A stretch of DNA of 64,000 bases from a virus: IMG/VR virus record IMGVR_UViG_3300041964_000082, positions 1-64,000 of that record; one strand, written 5' to 3'. Shown piece by piece: positions 4,662 to 24,213 of this stretch. Numbering within the stretch: the stretch's first letter is position 1; the number at the start of each line of letters is the position of its first letter. Below the pieces are notes generated by a model that ran no database searches, was not told where the DNA came from, and saw nothing but the letters and a program-made list of their open reading frames with translations. The translations under genes and the position numbers were made by a program.

Positions 4662-7600
4662 GTGGCAAGTCTCGGAACCCTCAATCTTGTTTTATCCGCA
4701 GACTCTAGTCCGCTACGCAAAGAGCTAAGCGGAGTCACACGCGAAGCCCAATTTGCCGCCAAAGCAATTCAAGGCATCTCCACAGGCGAAAGCTTTAGCG
4801 GTGCAGGGCTTCAGGTTCTAAGCTCGACCATCATTGGCCTAGTTGACGATACCCATCGGCTAGGCAATGAATTTAAGCTCACCACTTCACTAGTTGAAAA
4901 CCTAAAAAACGGGATAGGTGGTCTTGCCGCACTCCCGATTCCTGATTTTCAGGCAGAAGCTTTATCCTCACTGGGGCTAGGGCAGGTTTCTAGCAGTCTG
5001 GAAGTCCTCAGCCTTGCCTCTACAGGATTAAAGACACTGGCGATCGCTCAAGGGATCGCTCAAGGTGCGATTGTAGCTTTTAGCGGTGCGCTCGAAACAC
5101 TGAGAGTAAACCTCAAGTTAGTCAGCTACTTCTTTGAGGATATTGGCAATTCACTCAGGGCAGCAGGGGCAATGTTTGCGCCCCTGGTTGGCTTGATGGA
5201 TGGCGCTGGTCGCGCATTCGATCGACTGTCGGATGGGGCGGGCGACGTTAAAGGCAGAATGGATTCTGCCTGGGTTTCGGTTGGCAGCTTTGGGCAACAA
5301 CTCCAGAAATATATCGGAGCCGCCGAAAAATTCCAGTCGGCAATGGAAGATCTGGGCGAAGCTGCCATCCTATTTAATCAGTGGAAGAACCTTTCTGATA
5401 TCGTTGACGGTTTTTTTGGCGGGCTTCAAGAGAATTTTGACGCCGCTCGCAACTTTGAAACGCTAAATAATCGACTTGAACTTACCTCTACATCGGCGGG
5501 TGGAGCGAGAGAGGATCTAGCCTTCCTTCGGCAAACAGCAAAAGATTTAGGGCTAGACTTCAAGGCGGTTAGTGAGGGTTTCGCCCAATTCTCAACAGCA
5601 GCAAAACTAGCGGGCTACGACGCTAATCAGACCAAGCAAGTCTTCACAGACGTATCGCAAGCCGCCTCTGTGATGGGTCTGTCGGCTGAAGAGACCTCTG
5701 GAGTATTTCTAGCACTGCGGCAAAGTTTATCAGGTGGAACAGTTCAGCTAGAAGAATTAAACCAATTAGCTGAGCGTGTACCAGGTGCATTTGCTGCTGC
5801 TGCCCAAGCGCTAGGGGTAACGACAGGCGAGGTTAAAGGCTTGATTTCGGCGGGCAATGTTTCCTCAGCCGACTTTATTCCTAAATTTGCTGCTGCTCTT
5901 GCTTCTGTCACCGAGTCCGGCGTTACTGATGCGATGGGTTCTGGCACAGCAGCGGTCAATCGTTTTAATAACGCGCTGGGCGAAGTGTCGGTTTCACTTG
6001 GTAAAGATCTGCTGTCATTCGGTACGCCTGCAATCAATGCCTTTGCCAAAGTGCTTGAATTTGGCGCAGAAAATGCTGAATTGTTTGGAACTGCTGTCGA
6101 TGCATTCCTCGTTGCAGCAGCAATACGAGGTGCGGGTGCAGTAGGCAAGATGGGCACCGTGATTGCTAGCTTCGTCGCGCAAGGCGGCAAAGGCTCGATC
6201 GCAATGCAACTATTTGGGCAGCAAATCTCGCTTACGACTGCACAGATCGGAAACTGGCAGCGCAGGCTGGCTTAACTTTTGCTGCCCTAACTGTTTTCTA
6301 CAAAGTACTCGATCGCTTCAAGGATGGTGGCAGTGAAACCCAAAAGGCGGTCGACAGCCTCAACAATTCCTTGGTTGAACTGAATCAAGCTGCTGGCAAT
6401 ACTCCGTCACTTGCCGCGATCATCCCTGAAAATCCACCTTCAACTGATTTTCTCGATTCATTTGTCCACAAACTGAATGATGCCAACGCCGCAATCAATC
6501 GCTTGTTTGGACTGGATGAAGGCTTTGGCAGGCTGACCACCAATGCTGATAAACAGCTCAACGATCAGCTGATCAAGATCGGAGAATTCGGTCAAAAAGC
6601 ACAGGAGATTTTAGGACAATCGCTCAGCCTGCGTGAACAAAACAAAGGCGGTGACGGAGCGATCAACGAACTGAAGCAGCTAGACGCGATGCTTGCCCAA
6701 ATTGAGCAGCGCAAAGTCAACGTTGACCCTGCCAATGAGGACGCGATCGCTCAAATCCGACAAGAAGAGGAAGCGCTACTAAAGCGACGAGCAGACGCCC
6801 AAAAAGAGGTGCAAGCAACCCAAAGCGCCATCAACAACGCGCTGACGCAGGCACGGCAAGAGCTTCAGAATCTTGATCCTGCTCAGATGGGGCAAGAGGG
6901 ATACGATCGCGCTAAGGAGCAGATCGAGACTCAGATCACGCTGCTAGAGCGAGAGAAAACAGAACTCGATAAGGTTGCCAACGCTGCCACACAAACTGCT
7001 CAAGTTACGGCTGACGCTTTCAGCAAGTCGAATCACGAGATCGAAGCGGGCTACCAGCAGCGACAGGCAGCGATCGCAGAAGCGCTGGCAAGTGGAGAGA
7101 TCGACGAAGAGCAATCGAGAGAACGATCGCTTCAGGCTGAGCAAGAATACTTGCAGCAAAAGCTGGAACTAAACCGATCCCAGCTTGAAAAACTGCGGGC
7201 AGAACTAGAGAAAAACGCCAAGCTGCGGGCGATCGATCCTGCCGCTGCCACACTGACGGCAGATCAGGAAAAGCAGTACGCAGAACAGGTAAAGCAACTT
7301 GAACTGGAGACGGCGCAGACCCGCATTCAGATTGCCCAGAACACCCGCGAGGGCAAGCAGCAGGCACTAGAGGATGAGCTAAAAGGCATCGAGCAAGCCA
7401 ACAGCGAAGCAGAAGCCGCAGTCTCTAAAAGTCAGAACGATCGCACTGCCGCCATTCGTCAGCAGCAGCTAGCAGGTACGGTGGGAGAGGAGGAAGCCGC
7501 CGCTAAGATTGCCGAAATTCAGCGCGACTCGATCGCTGAGCAAATCGACCTTGAACGCGACAAGCTCGCTCAGCTTGCAGAACTTGAAGCCGCTGGCACA

Positions 7601-17467: not shown

Positions 17468-17515
17468 GCGGCGATCGGGTGCAAAGCAGGCAAACACACA
17501 GCAAAAGGGTTGAAA

Positions 17516-18004
17516 ATGAAAGCACTAAGCGATCGTCAGAATACAGCGGGCTTCACTTTGATCGAAGTTTTGATAACGATAATCATTATCGGTATCCTCA
17601 GCTCTCTCGCTTTGCCAGCGTACTTATCACAGGCTGCAAAAGCCAAACAGACAGAAGCGAAGGGGTATGTGAGTGCTGTCAATCGCGCTCAGCAAGCCTA
17701 CAGAATCGAAAAGTCTACATTTGCTGGGGAATGGACAGACCTAGAAATTGGCATTCCTGCCGAAACTCAAGACTATACCTACACTCTGAGCGCTGCGAGC
17801 GAAACCACAACAACGATCGCTGCCGAATCAGAAGCGCCTGAACTGCGCGACTACTCAGGCGGCGTGGTAGTCCTGCAAGACAGCGGGCAAACGTCCGTAG
17901 CCGCCTGTCAGACAACCAAAACAGGTGGGAGCGTGATTCTGCCGACGCTCGATCGATCGATTGGGGCAGGATGTGAGGGCAACGATGTGGAGATCATGCG
18001 GTAA
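17516..18004 (+). CDS. Type IV pilin-like protein
   Basis: An intact 162-residue ORF with a textbook type III signal: MKALSDRQNTAG followed by FTLIEVLITIIIIGILSSLA. Cleavage after Gly by prepilin peptidase would leave Phe at +1 and Glu at +5. The long hydrophobic helix, an alpha-1 spine (QAAKAKQTEAKGYVSAVNRA) and a C-terminal domain with two Cys (VAACQTT, GAGCEGN) match cyanobacterial PilA-like pilins. Pilins form host fibres for motility, adhesion and DNA uptake. A pilin among phage lysis genes is unusual and suggests transfer from the host. Confidence 0.85.
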   Translation: MKALSDRQNTAGFTLIEVLITIIIIGILSSLALPAYLSQAAKAKQTEAKGYVSAVNRAQQAYRIEKSTFAGEWTDLEIGIPAETQDYTYTLSAASETTTTIAAESEAPELRDYSGGVVVLQDSGQTSVAACQTTKTGGSVILPTLDRSIGAGCEGNDVEIMR

Positions 18005-18007
18005 GCA

Positions 18008-18212
18008 ATGGCTAACTTTTCTCCACGGCAAGGACATCCGATCGAAGTCTCCCGGCAACCGCTGTTTGTTCTGTCGATCGCGTGTCTGCGTCTCGCCTGG
18101 GTCGTATTGCGAAGATTGGCTAGCGTACATGATACGCGGCAACGAAGTGGGTATGGTTCACAATCGCTGCTTCTATGGCGGCGGCGAACCAAACAAAGAG
18201 AAGGCAAGGTAA
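18008..18212 (+). CDS. Cys-rich small protein, one frameshift
   Basis: ATG 18008 lies four bases after the pilin stop. After a frame change near 18040 it reads SPGNRCLFCRSRVCVSPGSY, then a Cys and CFYGGGEPNKEKAR. Five or six cysteines in about 45 residues suggest zinc binding. No family is recognised. It overlaps the following membrane protein start. Confidence 0.4.
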
Positions 18213-18579
18213 ACAGGTGGAACAACTGCTAGCCCATTTGTGCGGAGACTGGATGACCCAAAATAATTGGATTGCCCTGAACAAACGCACCTCTCCATCA
18301 TGGCTACCCGTCCTGGTACATGGCATGTTCTACGGTCTGTCATTTGTGGTCACAAGCCTTGCTTTTGATTCGCCCGAAATGCGATCGCTCATGCCTTTAG
18401 CCTTTATCGTCAGCACTCATATTCTGGTTGATCGATTCAATGTAGCCTCGCTATGGGTGAGAGCCTACAACTGGCAATGGGACGGCGATCGCCCCAACGT
18501 GCCTAACTTCGTCCTCTTGTGCTGCGACCAATCAATCCATTTGTGGCTAAATGCTATTGCTTTGCACTATCTTTCTTGA
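18175..18579 (+). CDS. DUF3307-like membrane protein
   Basis: The core pattern LLAHLCGDWMTQNNWIALNK, a hydrophobic segment with an early His (VLVHGMFYGLSFVV), HILVDRF and a terminal DQSIHLWLNA match the DUF3307 family of small integral membrane proteins found in phages and bacteria. Three membrane segments are likely. The start may instead be GTG at 18218. The last 17 codons are supplied next to an HNH element, and a second diverged copy of the same ending lies beyond it at 19340. Confidence 0.6.
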   Translation: MAAANQTKRRQGKQVEQLLAHLCGDWMTQNNWIALNKRTSPSWLPVLVHGMFYGLSFVVTSLAFDSPEMRSLMPLAFIVSTHILVDRFNVASLWVRAYNWQWDGDRPNVPNFVLLCCDQSIHLWLNAIALHYLS

Positions 18580-19230
18580 TTCGTCTATTTTCTCTCATCA
18601 AAGGAGTTGTCAATGCTTTTTCTATCGACCATCCACACTTAAAGCGCCTGCTGATAGTAGTAGGTCTAAAGCCCAGCCTTCTTTCCCACTCTCTTACACA
18701 AAGCGTCTCACCTTGAAAAGTTATCCATCGTGTCGTTCGTCTGTTTGCCGCTTGCTCTATCGGAGTAGCCCATCGACAGTTGTCTTTTGAGTAGCCACAA
18801 TTGTTGTCAATCCGATCAATCGAATGCTGTCTTGTTGGAGGTTCGCCCATATCCTCCAAAAACGCCTCGAAACTGTTGCGCATCGATCACAGACTGTAAT
18901 TCCTTTTGCCCCGTAATTTGCATAATTTGAGTCTTTGCAATCACAATGACACCGAGAAATCATTGCAGACCACGATCTAAAAGCGCCAGACAGATTATGT
19001 CCTCGCGTGTGTCCATGCGTGGAGAATCTTTCAGCAGCGGCAACTGCTGCAAGATCTTTCTTCAAACAACCACAAGATCTTGTGTGTCCTGTTGTAACCT
19101 TATGCTTGCTAAATTTCTTTTGTGTTCCGCAGTCACACAGGCATTCAAGTTGCGCTCTTCCGCCCAATATCTCTTTGACAACGGGTCAAACGACCAAACC
19201 GATCGCCCGGATCACTGTTATTCTTGTCAT
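18554..19230 (-). CDS. HNH homing endonuclease-like gene, copy 1, broken
   Basis: About 225 residues when rejoined. The start MTRITV-NPGDRFGRLT matches copy 2 at 20771, with a missing A near 19212. Then come ECLCDCGTQKKFSKHKV, GHTRSCGCLKKDL, SAMISRCH, NYGAKGITVCDR, and the HNH-type core HSIDRIDNNCGYSKDNCRWA, ending with an HTH-like tail (RLGFRPTTISRRFKCGWSIE). Cys pairs and the RIDNN..YS..NCRWAT motif are typical of a common phage HNH family. It sits against the 3' end of the DUF3307 gene, in opposite orientation. Confidence 0.7.
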
Positions 19231-19313
19231 AGCCCTCTCGCAAGTCGTGTTGTGAAATGGGTCAGCCGTTGCCGAATGTTGGAAGCATTTTGCAGCGGCG
19301 TTTCTATTATTTT
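19231..19313 (-). ncRNA. Conserved hairpin leader of HNH copy 1
   Basis: About 80 bases upstream of the HNH start are strongly conserved between the two copies (compare 20772-20855). Within it, 19265-19299 read on the minus strand folds as GCCG ... CGGC outer stem and an inner stem AATG-CTTCCAA-CATT. The loop CTTCCAA is identical in copy 2 while the stem is not (see findings). It may be a structured 5' leader; no known RNA family was recognised. Confidence 0.45.
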
Positions 19314-19339
19314 AACAAATCTAAGAAATGCAGTCGATC

Positions 19340-19392
19340 AATCAATTCACCTGTGGCTGAATGCTCTTGCTTTGCACTACCTGATCATCTAG
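19340..19392 (+). pseudogene. Duplicate 3' end of the DUF3307 gene
   Basis: This stretch encodes DQSIHLWLNALALHYLII-stop, nearly the same as the end of the gene at 18528-18579 (DQSIHLWLNAIALHYLS). DNA identity is roughly 40 of 48 bases, so the two are homologous but not a recent duplication. It is probably the original gene end, separated from its gene by the HNH element. Confidence 0.6.
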
Positions 19393-19404
19393 GAGGCGAT
19401 CGCC

Positions 19405-19689
19405 ATGCCAGATACACCCCTTGAACGCCTCGCAGAATTAGAAGCCGCTGTAGCAAAGCTAGAGGTAAGCGATCGCCTGCAAGTGAAGCAAATTCGGCTG
19501 ATCCAAAAGCTCAACTCTGCTCTGTTTGGGTGCATAGCGATCGGGCTTCTGCTCAGCCAGCAAACCATCCAAAGCCCTGAAAATAGACAGATGTTAGAAC
19601 GCATTGCGATCGGCGTAATAGCAGCAGGTGCGTCTGGTTTAGGCTTAAGTGGGTTTCTGGAAACGAAAGAATCGGAGTCAACTGAATGA
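19405..19689 (+). CDS. Small coiled-coil membrane protein, holin-like
   Basis: 94 residues: an N-terminal coiled coil (LERLAELEAAVAKLEVSDRL), a membrane segment (LFGCIAIGLLLS), then a second hydrophobic stretch (IAIGVIAAGASGLGLSGFL). The start has a good ribosome site (AGGAGG upstream). Size, topology and position downstream of the endolysin would suit a holin or lysis helper, but this is inference. It overlaps the next gene by ATGA. Confidence 0.5.
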   Translation: MPDTPLERLAELEAAVAKLEVSDRLQVKQIRLIQKLNSALFGCIAIGLLLSQQTIQSPENRQMLERIAIGVIAAGASGLGLSGFLETKESESTE

Positions 19690-19924
19690 CTTTCCACAAA
19701 TCCAGTAATTACGTCGAAATAACCTGCCCTGCTTGTGACGAGCAAGGAAATCGGCTTATTCCAGTTGAATCAGTTGCCTTCAGAGTTCATATCAGCATCG
19801 CGATCGACCCGAAAATGAGCCAGAGTCAAAAGACTTTCAGCCACTATTGCAAGAGTTTTATGAAAAGCTAAATCAACATTGCATAGAATTTAACGATCGA
19901 TACACCGCTTTAATCCAAGGTTAA
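19686..19924 (+). CDS. Small zinc-binding-like protein, one frameshift
   Basis: The start MTFHKSSNYVEITCPACDEQ contains a CPxC pair. After a frame change near 19810 it continues ENEPESKDFQPLLQEFYEKL and ends DRYTALIQG. About 79 residues. No family is recognised. Confidence 0.4.
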
Positions 19925-19946
19925 TTACCCAAGATCGATCGCCCTC

Positions 19947-20067
19947 ATGCCCGCAACCCAGCAACCCAGTGCCCGCGAACTCTTGAGAGCGATCGAGCAG
20001 AACGAATTGCGGCTCCACTATCAGCCGATCGTTTCTCTGCAAGCTCCAGCCTTGCCTGTGAGCGGCT
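19947..20067 (+). pseudogene. N-terminal EAL-gene fragment cut by HNH element
   Basis: ATG 19947 encodes SARELLRAIEQNELRLHYQP, then IVSLQAPALPVSGY. This is the beginning of an EAL domain, aligned with ALEKKQLLLYYQPIV...VVGYEALLR of the intact gene at 20912. Homology stops after GGCTAC, exactly before the codons for the E-A-L signature. The remainder of the open frame to 20855 runs through the inserted element and is not coding. Confidence 0.65.
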
Positions 20068-20077
20068 ACAAATCAAT

Positions 20078-20771
20078 TTATCCGGCCTCTCTAGCTGCTT
20101 TACTGCCTTTAGCTGATACTCCCTTTCTGTTCATACTTGGTGTTGTAAAAGCTTGCTCTACACTCCATCCTCTCTTTAGCCGACTGGATAACAGTGACGC
20201 GGGCAAACACACTTTGTCGCTCCACTCCTGCAAGCACAAAGACTCACCTTTATATTCAACAATTGTGTTGTTAGATCTGTTTCTTTGTTGTTGCTTGCGC
20301 GTTGCCCATCGACAATTTTCTTTTGAATACCCTAAATCGTTGTTTCTACGATCGAGAGTATGTTTATTTGTCGAAGGCTCACCCATATCTCAAGAAAGCT
20401 TCAAAGCTTTTACGCCATCGATCGCAAACTGTAATGCCTCTGCCACCATAGTTCTCGTAATAAGTATTCTTTGGATTGTGGCAACGTTGAATCATGTTCG
20501 TCCAAATTCGGTACAGTCTTGTTTTACGTCCACATGGGGTATGACCATGCTTTGTTATACGCTGCCGAGTAACATCAGACTGAAGACACCCGCACGATTG
20601 AGTGTGTCCAGTACGCAGCGCTTGCAGCAGAACTTTGCGCTTTTTGCCGCAATCACAAAAACATTCAAAGACTCGATACGTTCTACCAGAAGAAATCCTA
20701 TGTCTGGCAACTTCCTGAACGATTGTCAGCCGACCAAATCGATCGCCCGGATTTACTGTTATTGTTGTCAT
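20078..20771 (-). CDS. HNH homing endonuclease-like gene, copy 2
   Basis: About 230 residues with one frame change near 20380. The N-terminal part has NPGDRFGRLTIVQEVARHRI, CFCDCGKKRKVLLQALRTGH, QSCGCLQ, RIWTNMIQRCHNPKNTYYEN and YGGRGITVCDRW. The second part has the HNH core TLDRRNNDLGYSKENCRWAT and an HTH-like end (SLLSSRLKRGWSVEQAF). It is clearly related to copy 1 at 18554-19230 along its whole length but well diverged. It splits an EAL-domain gene at the active-site codon. Confidence 0.75.
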
Positions 20772-20855
20772 AGCCCTCTTGCAAGTCGTGTTGTTAGATG
20801 GGTTAGCCGTTGTGAGGTGTTGGAAGCACCCGCAGCGGCGTTTCTATTATTTTAG
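20772..20855 (-). ncRNA. Conserved hairpin leader of HNH copy 2
   Basis: The upstream 84 bases match the leader of copy 1 closely, including AGCCCTCT-GCAAGTCGTGTTGT and GCGGCGTTTCTATTATTTTA. At 20806-20839 on the minus strand the fold is GCCG ... CGGC with inner hairpin GGTG-CTTCCAA-CACC. Compared with copy 1 two base pairs change on both sides, evidence that the RNA or DNA structure is kept. Confidence 0.5.
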
Positions 20856-20911
20856 CTTAAATAATATTGATAGCTTGCTAATTACTTGTCGCTCAACAAA
20901 GCCTAATTATT

Positions 20912-21653
20912 GTGAACATACTAGACGCGCTAGAAAAAAAACAACTTCTGTTGTACTATCAACCAATTGTTGATCTGCAACAGCACAGCGCCCCAGTAGT
21001 GGGGTATGAAGCGCTTTTACGCTGTAAATGCCCCGATCGAGGTTTTCTACTTCCTAAAGACTTCCTACCCAGCATTACCCAAGCAAAAATAACTGATTTC
21101 AAGTGGCAAACGCCTTTATTTAACTGGGTATTCACTGAAGCATGTAGAACAGCAGACAACGCTTGAAGACGGGCTGTACTTGAGCGTAAACGTCGAACCT
21201 ATGCAGTTTCTTGAAGCTGGGTTTGTAGCACGAGTCAAGCAAACAATAGAACAGCTAAACCTTAAAGGCCGAATATGTTTTGAGATCACGGAACACTCGA
21301 TCGCGAGTCGTGATTTGCTAGTTCTACAGCAAGAACTTACATTATTAACAGAATCAGCAAAAGTTGCTCTAGATGATGTTTGGACAGGCAATGCTTCTTT
21401 GTGGAGAATTAGCGAACTGTATGGGTTGATTGACCTCTTAAAAATCGATCGCGTTTTCATGCCAAAAGACTCGTTTGATCGCAAGTCGATTGCTATCTTT
21501 AGGTGTTTCGTCACACTAGCTGACGCTCTGGACTTGCAGACAGTAGCAGAGGGGATTGAAACACAGCAACAGGTTGATTTCTGTCGATCGCTGGGCGTAC
21601 GCTTTGCTCAGGGGTTCTTTTTCGGGAAGGCGCAGGCAGAGTTGGCGCAATGA
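20912..21653 (+). CDS. Stand-alone EAL c-di-GMP phosphodiesterase, one frameshift
   Basis: About 246 residues starting at GTG. It is a single EAL domain with no sensor or GGDEF part. The catalytic set is present: EALLR, SVNVEP (Asn), FEITEHS (Glu), LDDVWTGNASL (Asp-Asp), LLKIDR (Lys), VAEGIET (Glu) and AQGFFFGK (Gln). EAL enzymes cut c-di-GMP to linear pGpG. The frame break near 21160, between FTEACR and LEDGLYLSVNV, looks like a single indel. Lowering c-di-GMP usually favours motility over attachment; a role in host behaviour is inference. Confidence 0.75.
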
Positions 21654-21889
21654 GTTGCAAACCCTGCCAAGACTTTAAAAGTCGTGGGAGAGCATTAGAA
21701 TTAAGACATATCTTTACGGTGTTACCAATGGAAGATAACGAAGACTTTCAATTGTCATCTGAATTACGCAACTTTTGGCACTACCTGAAATACAATCCAG
21801 CGTCGTTGTTTGATTACTGGTTAAAACATATGAAGAGGCCATCTGAAGAATTTTGGATGATGCTCAACTGGAACAGCCCTAGTTTCTGA
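21650..21889 (+). CDS. Small hypothetical protein, 79 aa
   Basis: Overlaps the EAL stop by 4 bases (ATGA). MSCKPCQDFKSRG has a CxxC pair. The body (ELRNFWHYLKYNPASLFDYW) is helical and Trp/Tyr-rich. Coupled to the EAL gene, so it may be co-expressed; function unknown. Confidence 0.45.
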   Translation: MSCKPCQDFKSRGRALELRHIFTVLPMEDNEDFQLSSELRNFWHYLKYNPASLFDYWLKHMKRPSEEFWMMLNWNSPSF

Positions 21890-22277
21890 GACTAACTTCT
21901 TCGCTTTGTACACTTGTACTCCCACGAAGCGACGGCTAAAATGTAGGGGCGATCGATCAATCAGTGGCTTGCCGCGCCCTGACAGGATGGGCTTCTCTAA
22001 GGGCTAGAGCGTGAGTGTTCTACTGGGTGGGAGAGAGAAGACTGAGCGCTGATTATCTGAGGCTTGGCGATAGCATCAACAGAGCGAGATACTCTCAGGC
22101 GGCAACAGCGCAATCGATCGCAATATCTCACCTGCCATGTGTAGGCGGAGCAACGAAGGCGATACGGGTATCCGGTCGCCTTTTGCATTGAAACTCTAGC
22201 CACTCGATCGCGTCACTGCATACGGTGTACCTTGCCATTTGCACGGTTAAACTGTATTAAGCTGCTGCCGTGCTGTC
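21890..22277. other. Intergenic, no gene seen; ends with terminator
   Basis: About 390 bases with no convincing ORF on either strand. A hairpin at 22156-22184 (AAGGCGA ... TCGCCTTTT) followed by T residues looks like a rho-independent terminator for the EAL operon. I checked for a tRNA and saw none. Confidence 0.4.
22156..22184 (+). terminator. Probable rho-independent terminator
   Basis: AAGGCGA pairs with TCGCCTT around a short GC-rich loop and is followed by TTTT. It lies between the EAL operon and the gene at 22278. Confidence 0.5.
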
Positions 22278-23188: not shown

Positions 23189-23677
23189 ATGTCCAACGGA
23201 TTCACCCGTCAAGAGACAATGATTTTGACAGGTCTTACATCAAACCAACTGAGCTACCTCGATCGCACGGATTTAGTTACTCCTCGAAAAGAAGGACACC
23301 CAAGACACCCAAAAATCACGTACTCAGCAGAACAAATTTTAGAAATTCAACTTATAAAAAAACTGAGAGAGAAAGTTTCACCCAAAGAAGTCGAGTCAGC
23401 CTTAGATTATCTGAAATCCAAAGACTACGATCCTCCGCTTCTTAATGTCAGACTTTTGTCTTTCAATAAAAACTTGTATTGGATTAAAAATGAAGAAAAC
23501 TTGAAGAGCTTAATCATGGAATTAGTGGAAAAGAATAAAGGTGAAATCGTTATGCTTACAATTGAACCGATTGGTGACGTTATCTCTGAAATCTGGGAAG
23601 AGAGAAGAAAAAGCCGAGTGTTAGATTTTGAGAAACGAATCAAAGGAACTGCGCTAGAGGTAAAGCGATCGCCCTAA
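23189..23677 (+). CDS. MerR-like DNA-binding regulator
   Basis: 162 residues. The N-terminal part has a winged-helix pattern of MerR type (FTRQETMILTGLTSNQLSYL, DLVTPRKEG), then AEQILEIQLIKKLREKVS and a C-terminal effector-like domain (GEIVMLTIEPIGDVISEIWE). Similar MerR-like proteins occur in cyanobacterial genomes. It ends face to face with the HNH gene at 23674. Confidence 0.55.
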   Translation: MSNGFTRQETMILTGLTSNQLSYLDRTDLVTPRKEGHPRHPKITYSAEQILEIQLIKKLREKVSPKEVESALDYLKSKDYDPPLLNVRLLSFNKNLYWIKNEENLKSLIMELVEKNKGEIVMLTIEPIGDVISEIWEERRKSRVLDFEKRIKGTALEVKRSP

Positions 23678-24213
23678 AACAAGGAAAGCTGCCCCTCAGC
23701 AACAGACTTCGATCGCTTACCCTTGCGCCTGTCCTGAGGTGGGGTGGAAGGCTGGGAAGTGGATCGATCGCAGCTCAGAGCGAAGATTTCGGCTTCGATC
23801 GGGTCATACCATGCGGGCGGCTCTCCATTCTCATCATTCACCCCAGCATAGATTCCAAAAAGGTCGGCTCTCATGCCGCTGATGAGCTTTGCCGCTTGGT
23901 CGGCATCGCCAGAAACCTCGATCGCATTTAGCAGCATCCTCTGCCAGATAATGCCACCCTGTCTTTGGTACTGAAGAAATTTGTCGGCATCCATTGGCAC
24001 GTTTTTGTGACACTGCCTGCACAGCGATACCAGATTCGATAGGTCATCTGCTCCACCCTGTTCTATCCAGTGGATGTGATGCGCCTCAACGTGGTCATAG
24101 ACAAAACCGCAGCATTGACAGATATTTCGATCGCGCTTTTTCACCTGATTCGGCAAGGTGTAGCTGCGCTTCGATCGTTCTTCTTTGGGGGCGATAGATA
24201 GCTTTTTGGGCAT
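23674..24213 (-). CDS. HNH endonuclease
   Basis: 179 residues with a classic zinc-bound HNH (McrA-like) motif: VKKRDRNICQCCG, HVEAHHIHWIEQGGADDLSN, LVSLCRQCHK. The C-terminal half is helical and ends GQLSLF. It is unrelated in sequence to the two HNH genes at 18-20 kb. It may be a packaging-related or homing nuclease; no terminase genes are nearby in the window, so the role is open. Confidence 0.75.
   Translation of the reverse strand: MPKKLSIAPKEERSKRSYTLPNQVKKRDRNICQCCGFVYDHVEAHHIHWIEQGGADDLSNLVSLCRQCHKNVPMDADKFLQYQRQGGIIWQRMLLNAIEVSGDADQAAKLISGMRADLFGIYAGVNDENGEPPAWYDPIEAEIFALSCDRSTSQPSTPPQDRRKGKRSKSVAEGQLSLF

Follow-up and report, generated by a model that had tools for sequence, protein, structure and literature searches.

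Closest to the arrangement described here are the WHO elements of Torulaspora and Lachancea yeasts, which home without splicing and exchange the 3' end of FBA1 whenever they integrate; the incoming end belongs to an allele that resists cleavage, and remnants of the old one stay beside the nuclease gene, where the duplicated fragment forms the second homology arm (Coughlan et al. 2020, PMC7282813). In the mORF hybrids of fungal mitochondria (Allomyces atp6; Glomus atp6, atp9, cox2 and nad3) a foreign C-terminus is fused to the gene body and the native C-terminus is orphaned (PMC3630166). The free-standing homing endonucleases of the T-even phages (Seg, Mob) and the phage HEG islands spread by gene conversion with co-converted flanks (PMC2988022, PMC10448857). 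As to duplication of target ends, the string 'duplicat' is absent from the T4 review and occurs twice in the HEG-island paper, both times on another matter (PMC2988022, PMC10448857).

We report two HNH genes, each lying at a split target gene, in a 64,000-nucleotide stretch of viral DNA (hereafter the window; positions 1 to 64,000 of IMG/VR record IMGVR_UViG_3300041964_000082). These genes are, very probably, the motors of splicing-free homing cassettes, WHO- or mORF-like in plan and built on a phage HNH nuclease whose cleavage is inferred. Like the WHO elements, they combine splicing-free homing with replacement of a target end and retention of the old end beside the nuclease gene, whereas WHO is an intein-zinc finger protein of yeast chromosomes directed mainly at the FBA1 3' end and the phage cassettes carry HNH proteins, strike many targets and occur at either end and in either orientation. 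The phage cassettes work like WHO elements but are not WHO elements proper, because their proteins belong to a phage HNH family and their targets are phage genes. With the mORF hybrids they share an endonuclease ORF, a foreign end, a native orphan and a similar, synonymous-rich divergence, though the mORF enzymes are LAGLIDADG or GIY-YIG proteins of organelles, confined to C-termini in the cases compared, while ours match an HNH profile in phage records. Seg, Mob and the HEG islands are likewise phage-borne nuclease genes near essential genes, but they either cut at a distance from their point of insertion or merely split the gene. No earlier description of end-replacement homing in phages was found in the open-access literature, subscription papers lying outside the search. 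The strategy itself is thus known from yeast and fungal mitochondria; its phage form, with an unrelated HNH nuclease, is new as far as found and gives phages a mode of homing so far recorded, to the same limit, only in fungi.

Organisation of the window loci

The record behind the window comprises 94,714 bases, is rich in CGATCG sites and resembles a phage of cyanobacteria. Between 18.2 and 21.7 kb the order is a DUF3307 gene, HNH1 (minus strand), a second DUF3307 tail, a small ORF, the first 41 codons of an EAL gene, HNH2 (minus strand) and a complete EAL gene, the last being of the c-di-GMP phosphodiesterase type; a type IV pilin-like gene lies at 17510-18004. Two relatives serve for comparison, L084 (IMGVR_UViG_3300041964_000064) and L085 (IMGVR_UViG_3300018877_000004), the latter colinear and with an uninterrupted 259-aa EAL gene. 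The features are as follows:

18175..18579, plus strand: DUF3307 gene, an intact 134-aa ORF (PF11750, E=3.5e-9) with a putative replacement C-terminus
18525..18579, plus strand: tail A, putative replacement (donor-type) DUF3307 end from the DQxxH codons (85% repeat of tail B; 38% GC; recoding)
18554..19230, minus strand: HNH1 gene, frameshifted, in pieces 18554-18883 and 18757-19167, its 3' end overlapping tail A (PHROG 374/3377; frames)
19229..19314, minus strand: HNH1 leader, with -10-like TTAAAATAATAG, a hairpin of the form stem-CUGC-hairpin-RCAA-stem' and a second hairpin over the ribosome site (likeness to the HNH2 leader; fold z -3.2)
19335..19394, plus strand: tail B, orphan (inferred native) DUF3307 C-terminus (repeat; L085 homology from 19390, just beyond)
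19947..20069, plus strand: orphan native EAL N-terminus, cut before the E-x-L codons (89.8% to the uninterrupted L085 gene, match ending at 20069)
20078..20771, minus strand: HNH2 gene, frameshifted, in pieces 20379-20771 and 20078-20386 (PHROG 374/3377; 46-47% to HNH1)
20769..20854, minus strand: HNH2 leader, same design (84% to the HNH1 leader; fold z -2.6)
20912..21653, plus strand: complete EAL gene, a different allele with its own N-terminus and a frame break near 21163, most likely imported (PF00563 in both pieces; GC; no match to the L085 body)
21654..21914, no strand assigned: probable rest of the imported tract (relatives' homology resumes at 21915 and 22190; GC)

The first-pass annotation of this DNA had placed HNH1 at the DQxxH end of the DUF3307 gene with a second gene end beyond it, and this is confirmed: tail A (18525-18572) recurs in the same direction as tail B (19335-19382), with 85% identity over 48 nt, and each opens with the D-Q-x-x-H codons, a motif that does not vary among three DUF3307 homologues. 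Between the tails runs HNH1, on the minus strand, terminating within tail A (stop codon 18554-18556). Eight of the 16 codons are identical in the two tails, seven differ synonymously and one non-synonymously; the GC content of tail A is 38%, against 51% for the body of the DUF3307 gene. Tail A looks imported and tail B native, which remains an inference, as relatives carry other DUF3307 alleles. IMG/VR yielded no close DUF3307 relatives, and those in cultured phages are below 60% identity. Since no relative was found that carries this DUF3307 allele without an HNH gene, and hence no empty site, the case for copy 1 rests on architecture, synonymous recoding and analogy. Beside this locus, window 19390-19671 is 96.5% identical to L085, against 80-90% for neighbouring matches, suggesting from the alignment a recent local exchange adjoining HNH1; about 0.9 kb of L085 (reverse complement, 6078-7224), running from the small ORF to the EAL gene and holding ORFs of 235 and 145 aa, is missing from the window (19671-19934).

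Empty sites had been predicted at both insertion points, and for the EAL gene L085 provides one with its junction at the predicted base. Window 19934-20069 matches the L085 EAL gene at 89.8% and the match ends at GGCTAC/, where '/' marks the break, the codon before E-x-L. The claim that copy 2 cuts the gene exactly before its E-A-L codons is thus upheld as to position, the residues at the cut in L085 being E-G-L. Likewise, the diverged N-terminal version that had been seen beyond HNH2 does exist, as the N-terminus of a complete EAL gene, but the foreign piece is this whole gene, of a different allele. Its DNA gave no match to the body of the L085 gene, the GC content of 20855-21914 is 30-45% (43-45% in the EAL gene) against 53-55% in the flanks, and homology to relatives resumes at 21915 and 22190; therefore the imported tract most likely comprises HNH2 and the entire EAL gene. 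We had considered an element bringing only a short EAL N-terminus and rejected it, since the window's EAL body is unlike that of L085 throughout. The EAL gene of L084 is uninterrupted but has indels, and is 73% identical to the orphan and 68% to the window's full EAL body.

The two HNH genes are related, as had been noted, with 46-47% identity between protein pieces and 54% in DNA, but neither is intact: small indels break both frames, at least three in HNH1 and one in HNH2, and the complete EAL frame is also broken. Decay cannot be told apart from assembly or sequencing error, and both window cassettes may now be inactive. The window HNH pieces, and the HNH proteins of the related loci L057, L061, L081, L090 and L093, match PHROG 374/3377 (E 1e-9 to 1e-70). 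The HNH proteins gave no Pfam match, and a model of the L093 protein (pLDDT 85.6) gave no PDB match by sequence or by fold.

Target-end duplication in other phages

HNH loci related to those of the window were gathered from viral contigs, bacterial genomes and cultured phages, and left and right flanks were compared in translation, with flank matches limited to 300 nt from the HNH start and 100 nt from the HNH stop and a cut-off of at least 28 bits. In ten of the 144 related loci (about 7%) a target end is duplicated close up against the HNH gene, where mismatched left/right pairs would give 0.17; of 339 non-HNH ORFs of the same loci, one scores (Fisher P = 3e-4 without the window, 3e-3 after dropping near-identical loci). 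The first-pass annotation had named as support for its reading that such elements are always paired with a donor-type copy of the target end, which this frequency contradicts; because most related HNH loci have no detectable target-end duplication, end replacement is not universal in the HNH family. Weaker matches below 28 bits (L075, L033, L125, L015, L101, L068) were not counted, and AP22 and its relatives, whose flanks score 23.5-26.7 bits, were accepted on empty-site evidence. An early flank scan without a distance limit returned mostly chance matches. The targets, with lysin, TerL, Dam, NTPase, macrodomain and MuF named from sequence motifs or record annotation and without a Pfam run, are:

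L057: GH108-type endolysin, orphan N-terminus cut at HEGG, HNH antisense
L090: terminase, cut just before Walker A
L061/L062: terminase, cut further upstream than in L090
L093/L094/L096: Dam methylase, cut at YYGG/KS
L081: P-loop NTPase, C-terminus
Xanthomonas phage LucasX (MW825358): macrodomain gene, cut before NTVGAMGKG
Acinetobacter phage AP22 and relatives: MuF-type head protein, cut at CxCR

Together with DUF3307 and EAL these make about nine independent insertions, at N- and C-termini and in sense and antisense orientation. In L081 (2980-3555) the HNH frame continues in frame into the target's orphan C-terminus and ends at the target's stop codon.

For three of these targets, comparison with uninterrupted relatives shows that the orphan is native and the end of the intact gene foreign. 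Two empty sites of the terminase, L141 and L142, have an uninterrupted gene carrying exactly the peptide of the L090 orphan; the orphan is 92.6% identical to them in DNA over 81 nt, after which the match stops. The intact L090 gene is about 70% identical to the same two sequences for its first 570 bp or so and then about 94% to its end, a step in identity that marks a co-conversion tract ending inside the gene.

Empty sites of the Dam gene, with the same upstream gene, are found in L222, L224, L226 and L227. Across L093, L094 and L096 a 613-nt cassette, made up of the leader and HNH gene (569 nt) and the initial 44 nt of Dam, is 100% identical. Around it identity is lower, at 82-96% in the upstream gene, 81-96% in the orphans and 87-91% in the Dam bodies, and every orphan is similar to an uninterrupted allele of the matching type. 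The peptide is unchanged in the replacement end, although seven of 14 codons differ.

The AP22 region is matched by 101 phage records, nine of which span the HNH gene and 80% or more of the query, and the HNH-free phages KEN_01 and WUPSU carry the AP22 orphan-type tail and the 3' flank. Compared with six HNH-free phages in 60-nt intervals, the AP22 head gene is mostly 85-100% identical, whereas its last 170 nt or so fall to 38-60% against five of the six. The exception is AB1, which at 75-88% in this tail region may be nearer the donor allele, so that the line between donor and recipient alleles is not sharp in every case. Among AP22, Ab31 and IME-Ap7 the HNH segment is 97-99.5% identical and the orphans 56-82%.

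Taken as a criterion of homing, spread into cognate empty sites with gene conversion is met by these comparisons of relatives (Dam in three backgrounds, the TerL tract); for the window's own cassettes there is nothing beyond the EAL empty site. A foreign end on an intact target beside a native orphan is met in TerL, Dam, AP22 and EAL, and is inferred only for DUF3307.

The proposed homing cassette and its rivals

The most serious rival holds that an intergenic homing gene cut the target once and was captured by illegitimate repair, one end recombining with the donor's homologous gene and the other joining non-homologous DNA, so that the orphan is a scar and no part of a reusable cassette. In copy 2 and L090 a long imported tract lies to one side alone and the opposite junction is abrupt, which is what such an event would leave. 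This rival is confronted, however, by the Dam cassette, identical in three backgrounds although each has retained its own orphan and body, and by the near-identity of the AP22-type cassette in several; this recurrence implies that the unit moves repeatedly in this form. We consider such repair an unlikely account of the loci as a whole, though it may still describe the first insertion. A metagenomic assembly chimera, suggested by the fact that the window duplications come from one record with several frameshifts, is very improbable, the same architecture being present in the cultured phages AP22, Ab31, IME-Ap7 and LucasX and in three separate Dam contigs.

Similarly little can be said for tandem paralogues, in which the target pieces would be separate old genes with the HNH gene merely between them. 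Partial gene duplicates do occur in phages and the window's two EAL genes differ throughout, but uninterrupted relatives have a single gene whose sequence is continuous across the breakpoint, the outcome that the first-pass annotation had named as refuting its reading thus being contradicted; moreover, the breakpoints hug the HNH gene and such duplicates are rare at other genes. Least credible of all, to the point where we almost discount it, is a group I intron or similar splicing element with the target pieces as exons. Phage introns commonly carry HNH genes and the leader is structured, yet what would be expected of an intron-borne HNH gene is not met: there is no Rfam intron match, at DUF3307, EAL and the lysin the HNH gene and leader run antisense, which would put the intron in the wrong orientation in the target transcript, and one of the two sides already holds the complete gene, so that residues would be duplicated by splicing. 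The first-pass suggestion of a homing-like element that brings a replacement piece, keeps its target whole and involves no splicing intron is supported by the EAL empty site and by the same plan in other phages.

If the HNH genes are the motors of homing cassettes, each cassette would consist of a leader/promoter, the HNH nuclease gene and a copy of one target end that has diverged, often by synonymous recoding. The nuclease would cut the unoccupied target at conserved-motif codons near one end of the gene; the predicted cut in the empty Dam allele is at or near TATTATGG/GGGC, and in the head gene at the CxCR codons. Repair of the break would copy the cassette from a donor having orphan, leader, HNH gene, replacement end and gene body, and once a cassette exists homology would be available to both arms. 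The recipient would keep its own orphan and gain the cassette, its gene being rebuilt with the donor's end and staying whole; with the old site split and the new end different in sequence, neither should be cut. The first insertion into a new gene would probably have used one homologous and one illegitimate side, judging by the tracts in copy 2 and L090. Sequence comparison shows the architecture and the EAL empty site in the window and, in other phages, the native orphan, the foreign end, tract boundaries within the gene and one cassette shared unchanged by several backgrounds. It is inferred that the nuclease cleaves and where exactly it does so, that recoding protects, and that the recombining arms are the orphan on one side and the gene body on the other, although the abruptness with which the orphans break off points to a cut at the site of insertion. 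For the window cassettes, no donor phage was found.

With less assurance, we lean towards a wider proposal, that a sizeable share of the 'free-standing' phage HNH genes are end-replacement cassettes that cut and insert at one conserved-motif site, intron-like but without splicing, as a further independent occurrence of the WHO/mORF strategy, steadily replacing core-gene ends with recoded alleles and leaving orphan ends as scars. The targets hit in several unrelated phages include terminase, Dam methylase, endolysin, macrodomain and MuF-type head genes, and cassettes of this kind explain three familiar nuisances of phage annotation: HNH genes overlapping their neighbours, orphan gene ends and abrupt mosaic breakpoints in core genes. 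The prediction is that the nuclease cuts empty alleles at the orphan's breakpoint and spares the recoded copy; if so, synonymously recoded ends are natural records of the target sequence of each nuclease.

Leaders and further HNH genes

The two window leaders are 84% identical, with 23 nt at 100% and 86% beyond, while their HNH genes are 54% identical. The element TAAAATARTAGAAA is common to both and to the leader of a third HNH gene in L084 and L085, and is followed by the hairpin design stem-CUGC-hairpin-RCAA-stem', with a 7-nt loop in the inner hairpin and compensatory variation in both stems. In the window leaders the Shine-Dalgarno sequence is covered by the second hairpin. Folds are better than those of shuffled sequences in the window (z -2.6, -3.2) and not in L084/L085 (z -1.1, -0.7), and because the latter fold no better than shuffles a conserved leader fold is suggestive only. 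A pattern search of viral contigs with the leader returned only L003, a chance match, and Rfam returned nothing relevant.

The third HNH gene (up to 414 aa, with repeated zinc-ribbon units) lies before the pilin-like gene at L084:1030-2166 and L085:16493-17737 and has the same leader design as the window HNH genes; no target duplication was seen there, and the corresponding window site, between 17467 and 17534, is empty. Another, canonical HNH gene (PF01844) at window 23674-24213 is 88-93% conserved in L084 and L085 and seems to be a stable resident rather than a mobile one.
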